Shown: one piece after another, positions 7,564-15,051 of the stretch | Position numbering within the stretch: the stretch's first letter is position 1 | Layout of the letters: the number at the start of each line of letters is the position of its first letter | NCBI GenBank assembly: GCA_024762925.1 | Contig: JANTGM010000035.1 | Span: 1 to 51,065, forward strand | Origin: Kofleriaceae bacterium | Lineage (GTDB): Bacteria; Myxococcota_A; Polyangia; Haliangiales; Haliangiaceae | DNA length: 51,065 nucleotides | Direction: 5' to 3' | Position numbers and translations under genes: made by a program | Notes under the pieces: generated by a model | Database searches by the model: none | Seen by the model: only the letters and a program-made list of their open reading frames with translations | What the model was told of the DNA's origin: nothing

Positions 7564-8487
7564 CTAGTTCCCCGCAAATGCGACCGTGACCCGGTCTGAT
7601 GGTGTGCGATCGGCGATGCGAAATGACCGCGCAGCAGCGTGCTCCTCGGCATCAAGGGCCTGCCATGCTGAATCGAACGCTTGGTACCGTTCTGCCAATT
7701 CCCCAATTTCAGGAGTACCAATGTGAATCGCGATCGCATCTTCGAACGTTATGAGGCTAGTGCCGTGGTGCTCATCGAGGTGCACCTCACCGATACGTGG
7801 TCTCTCGGTGTTTTCTCCAAACTCCTTGAGCGCTTCCAAGGCTGCGCGCAGCCGCTCCTGACTCTTCGTGGGATCCGCCAAATGGCTCGCACGTGTCATG
7901 CCTGTGATCACCGCTAGCCCATCCATTTCTCCGTTCGCGGTATTGGCGCGTTTGAACAGGTCACCATCAGCATTGGTGAGATAGAGGGCGCCAAGCGACA
8001 CTGCAGCTACGGCATGCTCTTCGCGAATCACGACGTCGAGGCCTGTTGGAAGGTCCCTTGAAACCTCGGCACTCACAATCCAAGGACTGGTTTCGAGGCG
8101 TGCTTCGAGAGTTCCCATGTCTGCGCGAAAGATGTTGGCATTGGCGGGAAGCTTGAGCAGCGCGGCCACGTCCTCGTTGGACACTTGAGAATGCCCCGAG
8201 ATATTGAGTTCGGTGATGGCGAAACGTGGAGAGTGGGTCATCCACTGGTAGCCGTAGTAGCCTCCGCCGATGGTAAGTCCGACCGCTCCGACAATTGCTA
8301 CAGCAGGCACGCTACGACGCCCAAGGCCAAGCAGCTTGGCGCCAACCTGCCGGATACTCGGCACTCGCTGGTGCAGGGGGACTATCTTTCGGTTACAGCT
8401 GCGCCTCGTTGCACGTGACTGCGTCGCTAGAACCGATCCGGATTTGCGCTGACGCCGAGGGGCGCGCTTTTGAGGTGCAACAGGCAC
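7564..8487 (-). CDS. ftsQ: Cell division protein FtsQ/DivIB
   Basis: FtsQ is a bitopic divisome protein that links early and late division proteins. It has a basic N-terminal cytoplasmic tail (about 60 residues), one TM helix at about residues 58-80 (VPAVAIVGAVGLTIGGGYYG), a POTRA domain (FAITELNISGHSQVSNEDV to about residue 160) and a beta domain to the end. The 307-residue length is near the family norm. The start is GTG at 8487; the basic tail makes internal starts possible. It lies between the HDOD gene (77-bp gap) and ftsA (6-bp gap). Confidence 0.93.
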   Translation of the reverse strand: MPVAPQKRAPRRQRKSGSVLATQSRATRRSCNRKIVPLHQRVPSIRQVGAKLLGLGRRSVPAVAIVGAVGLTIGGGYYGYQWMTHSPRFAITELNISGHSQVSNEDVAALLKLPANANIFRADMGTLEARLETSPWIVSAEVSRDLPTGLDVVIREEHAVAAVSLGALYLTNADGDLFKRANTANGEMDGLAVITGMTRASHLADPTKSQERLRAALEALKEFGENTERPRIGEVHLDEHHGTSLITFEDAIAIHIGTPEIGELAERYQAFDSAWQALDAEEHAAARSFRIADRTPSDRVTVAFAGN

Positions 8488-8564
8488 CTAAAATTCATGC
8501 GCATACCTTGCTGTCATGGGCAATTTTTCTGCTTAAATTCAGAGGAGTTGGTGCGAACAGACGT

Positions 8565-9437
8565 TCAGGTACTCTTTGGGAGTAGCCCTGAGTACATGTC
8601 GTTGTAGCGCTGAAACCCCTTGGCCTCGCACTCCTCGAGTTCTTCCTCACTCAGCGCGAGTCGCTCACAAAGCTGTGTCACAAGCTCCGTGGTCTCCTCC
8701 GGAAGCCCCATGGCCACCTGCCGAGATAGCGCAACCAGGAACACCGCGACCTGCGAGGAATCCACAAGCCCAAGCTCCTCGACAACCAAGGGATCATGGT
8801 GGTGCTGCATCACGTGCTCAAGCGATTCAAAGAGCTTCCACTTCTGCGCAACCATCACTCCAAGGTCGCAGTGGTCAAAGCCATAGGTGTCGAATTCCAA
8901 GTCGCGCTGCGCCTCAAGGCAGGGCTCCCCCAAGACCTTGCGGTAGGACTTGCCGATGATCTGGTTCATGAGCACGGTGCCAAAGTCGTGCATCAATCCA
9001 CACAGAAACGGGTCGTCTAGATCTTTGGTGCGAACAAGCTGTGCGATGGCTTCTGAAACTGCTGCAACCTTCAATGAGTAGGACCAGAGTACCTCAGTAA
9101 ACTTCGTAGTCTTGCTACCCATCATCGCCGAAGCCATGACCAGCTTTCGCAAATCGCGCATTCCAATTCGAATCAGTGCGGCCCGCAGGTTCGTTGCGGG
9201 TCGAGATCCGTAGAAGGGTGAGCTCGCCACTCGCAAGATCTTTGCGGCAATCGCCTGGTCGGTCTGCACCAGATCATGCAACTGCGTCATGTTGAAATCG
9301 GGGTCAGTCGTTAGCTGAAGGAGCTGCTGTGCCACCGCTGGCATCGTCTCGATGCTGTCGAGCTTCTCAATCGCCAACTCAAAGTCGGAGAGGGTGGGTT
9401 TCAGGTTTCCGTAGTCTCTTGCTGCAATGACTTCCAT
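8565..9437 (-). CDS. HDOD domain signalling protein
   Basis: This 290-residue protein is almost entirely an HDOD domain, a degenerate relative of HD phosphohydrolases that usually acts as a signalling scaffold. Family features are LDSIETMPAVAQQLLQLT near residue 25-45, LVQTDQAIAAKILRVASSPFYG at about 55-75, and GLMHDFGTVLM at about 150. The start at 9437 is chosen because a strong AAGGAGG lies five bases upstream; the longer ORF start at 9464 would run into the preceding gene. It follows the lone receiver by 10 bp and precedes ftsQ by 77 bp, so it sits in the ftsQAZ transcription unit. A CheY-like receiver next to an HDOD protein suggests phospho-signalling between them. Confidence 0.9.
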   Translation of the reverse strand: MEVIAARDYGNLKPTLSDFELAIEKLDSIETMPAVAQQLLQLTTDPDFNMTQLHDLVQTDQAIAAKILRVASSPFYGSRPATNLRAALIRIGMRDLRKLVMASAMMGSKTTKFTEVLWSYSLKVAAVSEAIAQLVRTKDLDDPFLCGLMHDFGTVLMNQIIGKSYRKVLGEPCLEAQRDLEFDTYGFDHCDLGVMVAQKWKLFESLEHVMQHHHDPLVVEELGLVDSSQVAVFLVALSRQVAMGLPEETTELVTQLCERLALSEEELEECEAKGFQRYNDMYSGLLPKST

Positions 9438-9447
9438 GATGTCCTCC

Positions 9448-9834
9448 TTATTGAGCCACCGCAATCGCCGGTCCGCTTAGCTGACGACTGATCACATCCC
9501 GCAGTTTGTCATTTGCGAGGGGTTTGAGAATGTAGTAGCGAACTCCAGCTGATTTCGCCTGTGCAAGCCGCGAACGCGCGGTAACTGCGCTTATGGCTAT
9601 TACCAGTGGCGAAACTGAGAGTTTTCCCAATGCTTCCGCAAACTGCAGTCCCGACAAGCGAGGCAGGATTAGGTCCAAAGTCACAATGGTCGGTGGATTT
9701 GCTTTGGCAGCTCGCATTGCACTAATGCCGTCTGCGAATACTCCCGAGATGAGGTAATTGTGCTCCTCAAAAGCCTCGGCGATGGAACGCGCCACCGTTG
9801 GGGAGCTCTCTGCGATGATGACTGATTTGCTCAT
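9448..9834 (-). CDS. Single-domain response regulator (CheY-like)
   Basis: A 128-residue receiver with no output domain. The phospho-acceptor Asp lies in VTLDLILPRLSG (about residue 53), the switch Ser in AISAV and the conserved Lys in ILKP. The usual N-terminal acidic pair is reduced to Glu-Ser (IIAESSPTV), so metal binding may be altered. The start at 9834 is preceded by AGGAG at good spacing, whereas the longer ORF runs into the ATPase gene. It begins 7 bp after the PilB-like gene ends and ends 10 bp before the HDOD gene. It probably carries a signal to the ATPase, the HDOD protein or the zinc-ribbon protein. Confidence 0.92.
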   Translation of the reverse strand: MSKSVIIAESSPTVARSIAEAFEEHNYLISGVFADGISAMRAAKANPPTIVTLDLILPRLSGLQFAEALGKLSVSPLVIAISAVTARSRLAQAKSAGVRYYILKPLANDKLRDVISRQLSGPAIAVAQ

Positions 9835-9841
9835 TGGGCTC

Positions 9842-11572
9842 CTATAGGTTGACAACTCGGTGGAGTTCCTCGGCCGTCGTTCGACCGGCAAAGACTTGTT
9901 CCAAGGCGCTTGTTCGTAGATCTTTCATTCCATTTGCCATCGCTAGCGTACGTATCTGAAGTGTGGTCGCGTCTTCGCCTATGAGGCTTCGCATCTCGTC
10001 ATCAACAACAAGGAGCTCGTGAATCGCGATTCGACCCTTGTATCCAGATCCTTCACACACACCACAACCTCTACCGGCCATCAGCTTGATGTCCTTGAGC
10101 CCACCGCCTGGGACAAGCGCCTCAAGTTCTGAGGGCGATGCGGTGTAGCGCACTCTGCATTCGGTGCAAACGGCCCTCAGAAGCCGCTGTGCCAGAATCG
10201 CTTGCAACGAAGGAGCAATCAGTGGTCTGGGCACGCCCATTTCGATCAACCGATGCACCGCTGCCGCTGCGTCATTGGTGTGCAAGGTCGAGAGCAGCAA
10301 GTGCCCTGTCACCGCCGCCTCCGCAGCAATGCACCCCGTCTCATGATCTCGAATCTCGCCAACTAAGATAATGTCTGGATCCTGTCTCAGAATCGCCCGC
10401 AGAGCGGCGGGAAAGGTCACTCCGCGTTTCTTGTTGATTGGAACTTGGTTGAGACCTGCGATCTCATATTCGATCGGGTCTTCCACAGTCACTACGTTCA
10501 CCTCGTCCGAGACGCGCTCCATGAGCGCTGCATAGAGGGTCGTACTCTTGCCCGAACCGGTTGGCCCGGTCACTAGCACCATGCCTTGTGAGCGCTGAAT
10601 CTCTGCACGAAACGATGCCAGTAACTCCTCGTCCATGCCCAATCCGCCCAGGTCGCGGTCAAGCATGGTGTGACCAAGAAGGCGAATCACGACCTTTTCA
10701 CCACTCGCCACGGGAAGACAAGAGACACGCATGTCGACCGATCTGCCGCTCATCTTTGTTCGCACTCGGCCGTCTTGCGGCGAGTACCGTTCCGCGATGT
10801 CCAACTTCGCCAGCACCTTGACACGAGAAACAATCCACGGACAAAGCACGATGGGATAGCTCGGTCCAACGCGCAAAATGCCATCAACGCGAAAGCGAAC
10901 CCGCACCTGCCCGCCGTATGGCTCAATGTGAATGTCGGAGGCGCCCGCGTGAATCGCATGGGCGAAAAGCCTGTCCACCAACTCGACAATCTTGCCAGCT
11001 TCACCGCCTTCTTTGAGCGCGAGCAGATCGCTCTCGGAAAGCGTCGCCACTTCGCTCTCTTCGATGTGTTCGAGCTCCGAGGTATCCGCTGCCATGTAGT
11101 ACACCCGGATCGCTTCCGCGATCTGAGTCGGCGGAACGACGAGAAGCCGAATGGGCCCGCTCACGAGCCTGCGAATATGGTCGTAGACATCAATTTCCCG
11201 AGGGTCGGTGATGCCGATGTACACTTCGTCTCCGGCGCGTGTGAGAGGAATCAGCTGATACCGCTCTGCGAGTTCTTCTGGGATGATCGTAAATAGGTCG
11301 CGATCGATCGTGAAGTCACTCAGCTCGGCTGCTGCAAGCCCAAAGAGTCCCCCAACAAGCTCGGCCCACAGCGGCTCTTCGATGAGTTCTGCGAGCACCA
11401 ACCGCCAACCAGGCGTGGGCGAGTCGTAGTCCGCGTCTTCGAGAATCGACATCGCAGTGACCTGGTCCACGCAGTCGTCGGCGACGAGTTGGTCCAGGAG
11501 CTTGCGGTCGATGACCTTCGCTTGATCGACTCGCGGCCGTTGAATAATCCAGTTATCAGCCAAAGAGGGCAT
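9842..11572 (-). CDS. PilB/GspE-type secretion ATPase, orphan
   Basis: This 576-residue hexameric ATPase belongs to the family that drives type IV pilus extension or type II secretion. After a diverged N-terminal T2SSE_N/MshEN-like region (about residues 1-150) come Walker A GPTGSGKSTTLY, the Asp box VEDPIEYE, Walker B DPDIILVGEIRD, the His box LLLSTLHTNDA, and the four-cysteine zinc site (CTEC and CGVC). All motor motifs are intact. The N-terminal region lacks a clear RLG c-di-GMP signature. No pilin, PilC, PilM-Q or PilT gene lies nearby, so the partner machine is elsewhere. Its start overlaps the end of the zinc-ribbon gene by 17 bp in another frame, which indicates coupled translation. 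Confidence 0.9.
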   Translation of the reverse strand: MPSLADNWIIQRPRVDQAKVIDRKLLDQLVADDCVDQVTAMSILEDADYDSPTPGWRLVLAELIEEPLWAELVGGLFGLAAAELSDFTIDRDLFTIIPEELAERYQLIPLTRAGDEVYIGITDPREIDVYDHIRRLVSGPIRLLVVPPTQIAEAIRVYYMAADTSELEHIEESEVATLSESDLLALKEGGEAGKIVELVDRLFAHAIHAGASDIHIEPYGGQVRVRFRVDGILRVGPSYPIVLCPWIVSRVKVLAKLDIAERYSPQDGRVRTKMSGRSVDMRVSCLPVASGEKVVIRLLGHTMLDRDLGGLGMDEELLASFRAEIQRSQGMVLVTGPTGSGKSTTLYAALMERVSDEVNVVTVEDPIEYEIAGLNQVPINKKRGVTFPAALRAILRQDPDIILVGEIRDHETGCIAAEAAVTGHLLLSTLHTNDAAAAVHRLIEMGVPRPLIAPSLQAILAQRLLRAVCTECRVRYTASPSELEALVPGGGLKDIKLMAGRGCGVCEGSGYKGRIAIHELLVVDDEMRSLIGEDATTLQIRTLAMANGMKDLRTSALEQVFAGRTTAEELHRVVNL

Positions 11573-11987
11573 CGATTTGGTCCTGTCCTAAATCATCGGC
11601 AGTGGCATCCCCAGACTTTTTCGGAATGGGTGGTGGCTTGCCGGCGTGGGTTACATTGCTACTGTTCAAATCGGAAAGCTTGCGCGCTAGTGCTCGCGCC
11701 CCCGGATCTAGCGGTGGTGGCTTGGGAGGTTTCCCCGCAGCAACTGGCGGCGATTGTGTTTGCTGCTGATTAGCGACGAGGGAGAAGCTAGAGAGATCCG
11801 CTCCGCAGCCTCCGCAATACAAGTCAGCTATGGCATTGCCAAAGTCGCAGCCCCCGCAGGCAACAACGATCTTGGCTCCACACGCTCGGCAGAACCTGCG
11901 ATTCCAGGGGTTGTCGGTGCCACATGATTCGCACCCACGACCTATTCCCTCACTTGCCAGTTTCATCCCACACACAAATTCGGACAT
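11556..11987 (-). CDS. Double zinc-ribbon protein with FliM/CheZ-like tail
   Basis: The protein (about 143 residues from the ATG at 11987; a start at 12017 is also possible) opens with two tandem CxxC...CxxC zinc ribbons (CESC/CRAC and CGGC/CGGC). A Pro/Ala/Gln-rich linker follows. The last residues read DDLGQDQIDALFG. That tail resembles the N-terminal peptide of FliM (SQxEIDALL) and the C-terminal tail of CheZ, both known CheY-docking peptides. With a lone CheY-like receiver two genes away, a docking role is a reasonable inference. The gene overlaps the ATPase start by 17 bp and is probably the first gene of the module. Function is otherwise unknown. Confidence 0.75.
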   Translation of the reverse strand: MSEFVCGMKLASEGIGRGCESCGTDNPWNRRFCRACGAKIVVACGGCDFGNAIADLYCGGCGADLSSFSLVANQQQTQSPPVAAGKPPKPPPLDPGARALARKLSDLNSSNVTHAGKPPPIPKKSGDATADDLGQDQIDALFG

Positions 11988-12201
11988 TCTGGCGAGATCT
12001 TTATCCACCACCCACATTCCGCTACAGGATTCAAATGCTTGTAATTACTCACTTCCGTGGTTCAAGTGCGTGTGGATTGCCATCACTGTGGTGGTATTTG
12101 TGGGGTACTGTGTGGGGAGATCTCGAATTGGCTCCCCAAAACCCCCCATTCATCGATATAGTTTAGGTAGCTTGATTTTGTAGTGATGGAGAGAGTTCCT
12201 C
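11988..12201. promoter_or_regulatory. Divergent intergenic region of the inserted module
   Basis: This 214-bp stretch separates the minus-strand zinc-ribbon/ATPase module from the plus-strand receiver/PilZ-like gene and must hold promoters for both. The part near 12080-12180 is G/T-rich with runs of GTGG and then a CCCC-rich stretch. A TATAGT-like sequence near 12157 could be a -10 element, but no matching -35 is evident. I see no clear operator palindrome and no ORF with coding character. Confidence 0.4.
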
Positions 12202-13260
12202 ATGCGCATTCTGATACTCGACGACAGCAAATCGTACGGTGACTTACTTGCAAGTGCTTGCAAGAAGCTTGGCCACCAGAGCGTCGTAAAACAAGATCCT
12301 GCTGAGACGCTCGCGCATCTCAAATCGGAAGAGGTGGACGCCTTCTTTGTCGACTTGGATATGCCCAAAATGAAGGGCACCGTCTTTGCGACGTTGGTGC
12401 GACAACAAGGATGCACGGTGCCAATCGCCATCTGCACAGGTAGCTGCGTAGACGAAGCGCTCACAGCAAAAGCCTCACGTATGGGTCAGGTGTTGCCAAA
12501 GATTTGGACGCACTCCGATCTTCGGATGGTATTGCAAGCCCTTCAACGAGAAGGGCAGGCAGACTCATTGCCGCCAAGCGAACTCGTTGTCAATCTGCCC
12601 GCACACGACGGTCAGGAAGAAGACACTCGCAATGACTCCAAGTCCGTCCGCAAGCTTGCCAGTGGAACGGGTGCTACTGCGAAAAACTCCTACGACAGGG
12701 CCAAGGCCAGGCCCAGAGGACGTGGATCCTCGGTTAGCAAGCGCAAGGGGCCTCCACGCGTGCACGTTCGGTGTTCGGCATGGGAACAGATTCGCAAGCT
12801 CTGCAGCGATGTGATGGGTGGCGCTAGCATGATTACCGTTCGAGCTCAGGCCAACTTGGCAAACGACCAGAGTGTTGTGCTGGCCTTGGCGCTTCCTGAT
12901 GACACGGTGGTCTCGATTGGCGCCAAAATCGTTGACACACGTACGGCCGGTTCCGATGGAAAGCGCCCATATCAGCTCGATCTGGTTGGTTTTGGCAGTA
13001 ATGAGATGGCGTTCTTGCTTGAGCGCTGCGACGAGAACGAGTCGACTGAACCCGACAACCCCAAGCCAACAACCAACCCCAAGCCAACAACCAACCCCAA
13101 GCCAACAACCGAGGCCAAGCCAACAACCGAGCGACCGAGACCGAGGGTGGCGTTGGCTCCAAGCACACCGGCCGACACTCGTCCGAGTATTCCAGAGAGC
13201 ATCGATGCCGTCGACATCAAGAACGCCCCAAGCTACGCCCCAAAAATTTCTTGGGACTAG
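12202..13260 (+). CDS. Receiver protein with PilZ-like C-terminal domain
   Basis: The N-terminal receiver (about residues 1-118) is complete: acidic pair in LILDDSKS, phospho-acceptor in FFVDLDMP, switch Thr in AICTGS and Lys in VLPK. After a basic linker (about 130-185) a domain at about 190-275 resembles the PilZ/TIGR02266 family common in myxobacteria (ITVRAQANLANDQSVVLALALP, YQLDLVGFG). The RxxxR and D/NxSxxG c-di-GMP motifs are not clearly present, so ligand binding is doubtful. A short repeat, NPKPTT-like, and a disordered tail follow. Its TAG overlaps the TAG of the convergent ddl gene, so the two ends share bases 13257-13260. It sits opposite to the division cluster, in the break between ddl and the ATPase module. 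Confidence 0.8.
   Translation: MRILILDDSKSYGDLLASACKKLGHQSVVKQDPAETLAHLKSEEVDAFFVDLDMPKMKGTVFATLVRQQGCTVPIAICTGSCVDEALTAKASRMGQVLPKIWTHSDLRMVLQALQREGQADSLPPSELVVNLPAHDGQEEDTRNDSKSVRKLASGTGATAKNSYDRAKARPRGRGSSVSKRKGPPRVHVRCSAWEQIRKLCSDVMGGASMITVRAQANLANDQSVVLALALPDDTVVSIGAKIVDTRTAGSDGKRPYQLDLVGFGSNEMAFLLERCDENESTEPDNPKPTTNPKPTTNPKPTTEAKPTTERPRPRVALAPSTPADTRPSIPESIDAVDIKNAPSYAPKISWD
13057..13128 (+). repeat. 18-bp tandem repeat (NPKPTT) in receiver gene
   Basis: Three identical 18-bp units at 13057, 13075 and 13093 encode Asn-Pro-Lys-Pro-Thr-Thr. A fourth unit at 13111 has two changes at its start and encodes Glu-Ala-Lys-Pro-Thr-Thr. The unit is a whole number of codons, so copy-number change would lengthen or shorten the tail without a frameshift. 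Confidence 0.95.
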
Positions 13261-14150
13261 ATTGCAGCGAGCAAGATGCGCTCGCACAGCGCTGGGTAAT
13301 CAATGCCTGCGTACTTTGCGACCTTTGGCATTAGGCTCTGCCCTGTCATTCCGGGCAACGTGTTGACCTCTAGCACAAACGCCTCGCCGTTTTCGCGCAC
13401 TCGAATGTCCACGCGCGAGTAGCTTTCGCAACCAAGAGCTCTGTGCGCACCAAGGGCAAGCGCGCTGAGCTTCTCGCAAAGTGTCTCTGGTAGTTCTGCG
13501 GGAATCAGATACTCCGTGTCATCACGCAAGTACTTGGCTTCGTAATCGTAGAAACCTTTGCTGGTTCGCACCTCAATCGTACCGAGCGCTTGGTCTCCAA
13601 GAATCCCAACAAAGACTTCGTGGCCTTCAATGTATTCCTCGATCAGAACAATTCCGCCTTGCTCTTTGGCGAGAGCAAGAGCGTCATCAACCTCGTCAGC
13701 GTTTCGCACAACACTCACGCCAACCGAGGAGCCTTCGCTTGCGGGTTTAACGGCGATCGGATAGTCAATGCGAATCGCTTCGTCAGGATTCCAGATTTGC
13801 CATGCGGGCGTTGCGATACCGTGAGACTCGAAGACTCGCTTGGAGGCAACCTTGTCCATCGCCAAAGCAGAAGACAGAACGCCCGAGCCTGTGCAGGCAA
13901 TGCCAAGGCATTGGAGAAGGCCTTGCACAGCCCCATCTTCGCCGCAGGTGCCATGAAGCGCATTCCACACAACTTCGACCTTTGCCTCTTCGAGAAGCAT
14001 GGGAAGAGAAGTTCCGGGCTTCCAGTCGAGAGCGATTGCCCTGTAGCCAAGTTCGGTGAGCGCATCGAAGACGCCCTTGCCGGTCTTGAGCGACACTTCG
14101 CGCTCGCTACTAGGGCCGCCCATGAGTACTGCGATTCGCTTAGTCTTCAC
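13257..14150 (-). CDS. ddl: D-alanine--D-alanine ligase
   Basis: This ATP-grasp enzyme joins two D-Ala molecules for the peptidoglycan stem. N-terminal MGGPSSEREVS (about residues 9-19) and HGTCGEDGAVQ (about 65-75) are family signatures. The ATP-grasp core has KPASEGSSVGV, EEYIEGHEV and the metal-binding end LEVNTLPGMTGQSLMP. The 297-residue length fits Ddl. The start is GTG at 14150: the longer ORF runs 102 bp into murB without similarity. The GTG lies 11 bp inside the end of murB. The TAG stop overlaps the stop of the convergent receiver gene. Order murC-murB-ddl is typical of the dcw cluster, but here ftsQ does not follow directly. Confidence 0.96.
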   Translation of the reverse strand: MKTKRIAVLMGGPSSEREVSLKTGKGVFDALTELGYRAIALDWKPGTSLPMLLEEAKVEVVWNALHGTCGEDGAVQGLLQCLGIACTGSGVLSSALAMDKVASKRVFESHGIATPAWQIWNPDEAIRIDYPIAVKPASEGSSVGVSVVRNADEVDDALALAKEQGGIVLIEEYIEGHEVFVGILGDQALGTIEVRTSKGFYDYEAKYLRDDTEYLIPAELPETLCEKLSALALGAHRALGCESYSRVDIRVRENGEAFVLEVNTLPGMTGQSLMPKVAKYAGIDYPALCERILLAAI

Positions 14151-15051
14151 CGATGCACTTCCATTCCAAAACCAGTTCCACTCCGTGTTCGGCAAGGACC
14201 TTGGCTTTTGCTTCGGCGACGAGGGCAAGCATGTCCGCTGCCTTTGCATCACCGTGATTCACAAACCAGTTTGCATGGGCGGGTGAGCATTCAGCGGCTC
14301 CCACTCGCGTGCCCTTTAACCCCACAGACTCGATCAGACGCCCAGCGTAGTCACCCTCTGGGTTCTTGAAGACTGAGCCTGCGTTGTTGGCTCCCTTCGG
14401 CTCGCGCTCTTTGCGGCGCGCGCGCAACCCAGCCACGACTTCCTTGATCTCAGCCAGAGGTCGCGGCCAGAGCGTAAGAGTCGCGCTCAAGACAACCTCA
14501 TCCACGGGTAGAGCAGAACCGCGATAGACAAACTTGCACTCCTCATTCGTGCGAGTCACCGTCTCGCCATCGGTCAGCCGAAGTGAGCGTACGCTGGTTG
14601 TGACGTCCTTGAACTCGCCGAGGTACGTCCCTGCATTCATAACCAAGCCACCACCGACCGAGCCCGGAACACCGCCCAAGAACTCGAGGCCACCCAACTC
14701 CCACTTAGTCACCGAACTAAGAAGTTTTCCGGTTGATACCCCAGCGTCCACGACTACAACGTTGTCGCGAACCCGTTCGAGATTGCGGAGTGCACGTGTT
14801 GCAATGACGACGCCTCGGATTCCCCCATCACGAACGAGCAGGTTCGAGCCGCCGCCAACCGTCGTCATAGGAATGCCTTCCGCCAGACACCATTGAACGA
14901 TCGCAACTAGCATGTTTGTGTCGCGAGCCTCGATATAGGCGTCTGCTGGGCCACCGATCTTGAGCGTCGTGTGACGTCTCATGGGTTCAGCAAAGCGCAC
15001 ATCCTCCCCACAGAGGGAAAGCAGCTGCGTTTGCTGGTTCTCGCTAAGCAA
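14140..15051 (-). CDS. murB: UDP-N-acetylenolpyruvoylglucosamine reductase
   Basis: MurB is a cytoplasmic FAD enzyme that reduces UDP-GlcNAc-enolpyruvate to UDP-MurNAc. The FAD-binding part has TTLKIGGPAD (about residues 28-37) and TVGGGSNLLVRD (about 63-74). The middle holds GVPGSVGGGLVMNAGTY. The catalytic Ser lies in NNAGSVFKNPEGDYAGRLIE (about 222-240). At 303 residues it matches the shorter type II MurB. It starts 5 bp after murC ends and overlaps ddl by 11 bp. Confidence 0.97.
   Translation of the reverse strand: MLSENQQTQLLSLCGEDVRFAEPMRRHTTLKIGGPADAYIEARDTNMLVAIVQWCLAEGIPMTTVGGGSNLLVRDGGIRGVVIATRALRNLERVRDNVVVVDAGVSTGKLLSSVTKWELGGLEFLGGVPGSVGGGLVMNAGTYLGEFKDVTTSVRSLRLTDGETVTRTNEECKFVYRGSALPVDEVVLSATLTLWPRPLAEIKEVVAGLRARRKEREPKGANNAGSVFKNPEGDYAGRLIESVGLKGTRVGAAECSPAHANWFVNHGDAKAADMLALVAEAKAKVLAEHGVELVLEWKCIGED

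Follow-up and report, generated by a model that had tools for sequence, protein, structure and literature searches.

A conserved Haliangiales cassette with a PilB-sister ATPase, a CheY-like receiver and a zinc-ribbon protein bearing a FliM-like tail

Known receiver-controlled motors and the Kofleriaceae cassette

Signal routes to pilus ATPases are largely open beyond a few model species. EmvR of Xanthomonas oryzae is a PilB-binding protein that reduces the ATPase activity of its target (PMC11973254), and the PATAN-CheY protein PixE acts on PilB1 of Synechocystis, as that work is cited in PMC7690835. The EIDALL motif is the means by which FliM and FliY capture CheY, and the archaeal adaptor CheF binds CheY in a mode other than EIDALL docking (PMC9126983). 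Here we analyse a cassette of four minus-strand genes, encoding a zinc-ribbon protein, a PilB/GspE-type ATPase, a CheY-like receiver and an HDOD protein, in a 51,065-nucleotide stretch from a Kofleriaceae bacterium of the order Haliangiales in the Myxococcota (contig JANTGM010000035.1 of assembly GCA_024762925.1; this whole stretch, the window, is contig C35 of the 6.8-Mb genome G000). On balance we favour the reading that the cassette is a stand-alone signalling-motor unit, in which a chemotaxis-like signal passing through the receiver and a zinc-ribbon adaptor would control a PilB-sister ATPase.

Like the EmvR–PilB pair, the cassette would have a single-domain receiver acting on a PilB-type ATPase, but EmvR binds canonical PilB directly, and neither a zinc-ribbon adaptor nor a FliM-like tail is described in that study. 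PixE–PilB1 offers the same likeness, a CheY-like regulator controlling an extension ATPase; as far as the citing article presents it, a PATAN domain stands there in place of the zinc ribbon and docking tail, and the motor is a canonical pilus motor. The likeness to FliM and FliY lies in a short, CheY-capturing helical tail and that to CheF in an adaptor that links CheY with a motor, whereas the FliM motif is N-terminal and belongs to the flagellar C-ring, and that of the cassette is C-terminal, on a zinc-ribbon protein encoded beside a PilB-sister ATPase. In open-access literature on PilB with HDOD, zinc ribbon, CheX or EIDALL we found no description of the cassette. Receiver-controlled pilus ATPases are already known from EmvR–PilB and PixE–PilB1, and to judge from sequence the FliM-like adaptor tail is most likely the new part.

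The cassette comprises the following features.

11556-11987, minus strand: double zinc-ribbon protein (Pfam DZR, E 3e-7; possible upstream start at 12017)
11559-11591, minus strand: FliM-like tail LGQDQIDALFG at the end of the zinc-ribbon protein, with counterparts in 14/14 cassette genomes
9842-11572, minus strand: PilB/GspE-type ATPase (PF00437, E 9e-122; MshEN, E 2e-16)
9448-9834, minus strand: single-domain CheY-like receiver (PF00072, E 3e-17)
8565-9437, minus strand: HDOD protein with ATG start at 9437 (PF08668, E 1e-40; orthologues in the same position in five genomes)

The zinc-ribbon and ATPase genes overlap by 17 bp, gaps of 7 and 10 bp lead on to the receiver and HDOD genes, and 77 bp then separate HDOD from ftsQ; the cassette is presumably transcribed as an operon, and the receiver and HDOD starts were shifted inward to ATG codons that agree with orthologues. 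Compared with the congener G001, all four genes had pN < pS (ratios of non-synonymous to synonymous differences per site of 0.22-0.55, with synonymous sites near saturation), and this purifying selection indicates that they are not spurious open reading frames (ORFs). A first-pass annotation of this DNA had reported the four genes with these spacings and no pilus or secretion gene nearby; Pfam matches and coordinates agree with it, and among the genes listed for the window none was recognisable as belonging to a pilus or secretion system.

Synteny was compared in 35 Haliangiales genomes. The cassette as found in the window (type A: zinc ribbon, ATPase, receiver, HDOD) is present in five of them (G000, G001, G022, G009 and G017), and a second form (type B: receiver, zinc ribbon, ATPase) occurs in nine more (G006, G007, G014, G018, G019, G020, G021, G400 and G402). 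Gene order within the cassette is constant across two families of Haliangiales while the surroundings change, its neighbours in G022, G009 and G017 being unrelated or flagellar genes. An HDOD-based scan of genome contigs gave no additional cassette outside Haliangiales. The earlier proposal of a signal-controlled PilB-like ATPase module lying apart from pilus genes is thus supported, the module being conserved as a unit in related genomes, and what was mis-framed was its attachment to cell division: the cassette is probably a stand-alone unit.

The ATPase clade and the zinc-ribbon tail

Walker A, Asp box, Walker B, His box and the tetracysteine CxxC...CxxC are all kept in the ATPase, with invariant columns around G336-K342, Q397-D409 and T422-D434 and at C469, C472, C503 and C506. 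The first MshEN half is degenerate in G000 and G001, and the cyclic-di-GMP-type first half-site is seemingly kept in G022 and G009. An MshEN-like N-terminus and a T2SSE core with tetracysteine are shared with canonical PilB of type IVa pili (T4aP), but the window ATPase scored 527 bits and its orthologues 515-551 with the PilB model TIGR02538 (cut-off 675.65), compared with 796 for the genome's own PilB on contig C4, to which it is 41% identical. With the GspE model TIGR02533 (cut-off 630.25) it reached 510 bits and the genome's own GspE (C113) 639. Neither pilT nor pilC lies beside the cassette; the genome's own pilB-pilT-pilC are on C4.

An IQ-TREE phylogeny of a reduced set of 38 sequences (of 75; FastTree was also used) placed the type A and type B ATPases in one clade with support of 99.7/100, apart from the PilB group, which includes Myxococcus and Geobacter (100/100), and from GspE (97.2/99). 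Assignment to PilB or to GspE is ruled out by this tree together with scores below both cut-offs, and by these measures the ATPase is a third clade of the PilB/GspE family, which simple annotation would label GspE/PulE or PilB. In a profile search of 379 genomes sampled over the phylum, orthologues scored 1024-1090 bits with a type A profile and the other matches listed at most 579; because the profile was built from four orthologues and its own members account for the three or four high scores, this gap shows that further close relatives are absent and is not an independent test. The G017 orthologue, whose reading frame is broken in two by a frame shift in the assembled sequence, stood outside the profile. 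Type B ATPases had PilB-like scores with the type A profile yet form a group of their own (964 bits for G006 vs at most 522 for others). Several Kofleriaceae also carry a further, very divergent T2SSE-type ATPase of 692 aa with a different N-terminus (L233, 7461-9539); this long branch fell inside the joint type A and B clade in the first FastTree and was omitted from later trees.

The zinc-ribbon protein has a proline-rich linker and a helical C-terminal tail, and linkers are highly variable among the 14 proteins; eight cysteines and the Q, D and F of the tail are invariant in a nine-row alignment. All 14 cassette zinc-ribbon proteins carry Q..[ILV]D.[LMF]F at their end, with 1-6 residues between it and the C-terminus, the window tail peptide being SGDATADDLGQDQIDALFG. 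In a first scan of 225 loci, 27 of the 29 ORFs with the motif were cassette zinc-ribbon proteins, some genes being counted repeatedly, and a stricter pattern occurred six times among 1209 distinct called proteins, every time in a cassette zinc-ribbon gene. AlphaFold2 (AF2) predicted a helix at residues 135-142 (predicted local distance difference test score about 80), and the window tail has the L-x-Q-x-x-I-D-A-L-L/F pattern of the amphipathic helix in the FliM N-terminal EIDALL motif. This resemblance to the FliM/FliY peptide suggests a candidate CheY-docking site. The genome's own FliM, encoded in a large flagellar gene cluster (C10 of G000, L245), has the N-terminus MSDAPLDPNELEAIQ, which is degenerate at the CheY-docking motif. 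A 491-aa Thermodesulfobacteriota protein (L155, 11129-12604) also has a CheY-docking-like end, LNQDAVDKLLAELGF, and is without zinc ribbons.

Signal input and the machine served

In the mechanism that we propose, the zinc-ribbon protein would serve as adaptor to the PilB-sister ATPase: the CheY-like receiver would dock on its FliM-like C-terminal helix, and the state of the receiver would switch the activity or localisation of the ATPase. Input would come from HDOD in type A, or from a CheA-like Hpt kinase and a CheX-like phosphatase in type B. Directly downstream of the type B cassette we found an Hpt-HATPase_c kinase above cut-off in all three genomes scanned and a CheX-like protein in all four scanned (19-27 bits against a Pfam cut-off of 27), so that the predicted type B gene set follows the scheme of a small phosphorelay of the chemotaxis type. 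Should the docking tail behave as one would expect from its sequence, the cassette would be a modular route to CheY control of a PilB-type motor. The genome that holds the L148 cassette also encodes, in locus L147 (9995-10903), a paralogue of the HDOD protein of the cassette, with FliE-FlgC-FlgB and an NtrC-type regulator as its neighbours.

Alignment of the window receiver with CheY showed that the phosphoacceptor Asp (Asp57), a Ser at Thr87 and the equivalents of Tyr106 and Lys109 are kept, the Tyr106 equivalent being invariant in every cassette receiver. The acidic pair is complete in type B receivers and reduced to Glu-Ser in the window. Several points weigh against the proposed unit. Type A receivers, that of the window included, have E/D and then S/Q where the acidic pair is expected; because half of the pair is lost, phosphorylation of the window receiver is uncertain and maybe weak or absent, and it is possible that this receiver acts independently of phosphorylation. 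Moreover, the docking-like motif is short (8-11 residues), the CheX matches of type B lie below Pfam cut-offs, FliG is missing from three of the nine type B genomes, so that a flagellar link is not obligatory, and G022 has eight PF00482 hits, weaker Tad-like ones included, making an extra platform possible there.

The platform domain PF00482 is found in this genome in two two-domain proteins (PilC by PilB, GspF by GspE) and a Tad pair, and most cassette genomes have four domain hits from two two-domain proteins. Thus as a rule there is no third platform (extra PilC/GspF) in cassette genomes, and the ATPase would probably work at the ordinary T4aP or type II secretion system (T2SS) platform, as an alternative or modulating extension motor; it may share such a platform or act without one. 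The missing platform of its own, and the signalling partners that surround its gene, would also fit an ATPase that is a signalling protein, its nucleotide state being read by partners without pilus extension of its own, and Myxococcus xanthus PilB, which takes part in exopolysaccharide regulation (PMC5544727), gives a precedent. We regard this as unlikely, because the retention of all catalytic motifs and of the zinc tetracysteine suggests that ATP turnover is used.

The stand-alone signalling-motor unit can also be set against a flagellar role, in which the cassette would serve the flagellum or a flagellum–pilus switch and share CheY-type signals with the motor. The type A cassette of G017 (L236) is embedded in a cluster of flagellar genes and the type B cassette of G018 (L241) adjoins FlgB-FlgC-FliE-FliF-FliG, and FliG is present in 11/14 cassette genomes, among them all five of type A, vs 7/21 others (Fisher p 0.015, uncorrected for kinship, completeness or assembly gaps). 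The window cassette is distant from the flagellar genes on C10, and with the three FliG-negative type B genomes as well, flagellar coordination seems decidedly improbable. We hold as a doubtful though credible extension of the preferred reading that Haliangiales have a third PilB/GspE motor branch wired to chemotaxis-like phosphorelays through a zinc-ribbon adaptor fitted with the CheY-docking peptide of flagella, so that one signal could switch a cell between flagella and pili.

Position beside ftsQ

The cassette is followed by ftsQAZ, and its surroundings are as follows.

7564-8487, minus strand: ftsQ (POTRA_1, E 7e-14; FtsQ_DivIB_C, E 8e-8), followed by ftsA and ftsZ
8519-8570, minus strand: 52-bp conserved element 5' of ftsQ, ACCTGAACGTCTGT-N19-TTTAAGCAGAAAAATTGCC, overlapping the HDOD stop codon and outside the cassette
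12202-13260, plus strand: 352-aa receiver protein (PF00072, E 3e-12), diverging from the cassette and converging on ddl
13257-14252, minus strand: ddl (PRK01372, above cut-off)

The first-pass annotation had placed the four genes between ddl and ftsQ and proposed that they are co-transcribed with ftsQAZ and may tie polar or septal machinery to cell division. Adjacency to ftsQ is correct, and on the ddl side the plus-strand receiver gene had been overlooked. Because this gene intervenes, the cassette is no continuation of a ddl operon and requires its own promoter within 11988-12201. Division coupling has in its favour the common strand, the short distance to ftsQ and the finding of no terminator-like site between HDOD and ftsQ; scans with promoter and terminator consensus sequences gave matches no more frequent than chance.

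Among the 35 genomes the adjacency of cassette and ftsQ is confined to this one, and linkage to ftsQAZ is absent in G001, G002, G022, G009 and G017. The congener G001 keeps the cassette and the divergent receiver gene, with a convergent GST-like gene after HDOD, and its ftsQ is on a separate contig with 410 bp upstream. In G002 the cassette was not found in a draft that is 86% complete, and ftsQ adjoins the plus-strand receiver gene. In about ten other Haliangiales genomes ddl and ftsQ are separated by 2-10 kb that consist for the most part of unrelated genes, and an interval so variable in Kofleriaceae is a weak indicator of function. Moreover, alignment showed that ACCTGAACGTCTGT-N19/20-TTTAAGYAGAAAAATTGCC precedes ftsQ in all three congeners (G000, G001 and G002) despite different upstream genes, and the 52-bp element had one match in the window and none in 100 shuffles. 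Since the element is kept whatever gene lies upstream, ftsQAZ likely has its own promoter, and the element is probably a putative promoter or regulatory site of ftsQAZ itself. Synteny and this element together rule out division coupling as the main explanation, and we consider it highly improbable; the position beside ftsQ looks accidental from the gene orders compared, though transcription may read through from the cassette into ftsQ in this one strain. This does away with a connection of pili to cell division that was attractive but mistaken.

For the C-terminal alpha/beta domain of the plus-strand receiver protein, Pfam gave no match, PilZ included, and an AF2 fold search matched the receiver part only. 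Its orthologues adjoin ftsQ in G002, ddl in G022 and the cassette in G001, and from these positions the plus-strand receiver gene may be an older neighbour of the division and cell wall (dcw) cluster than the cassette.

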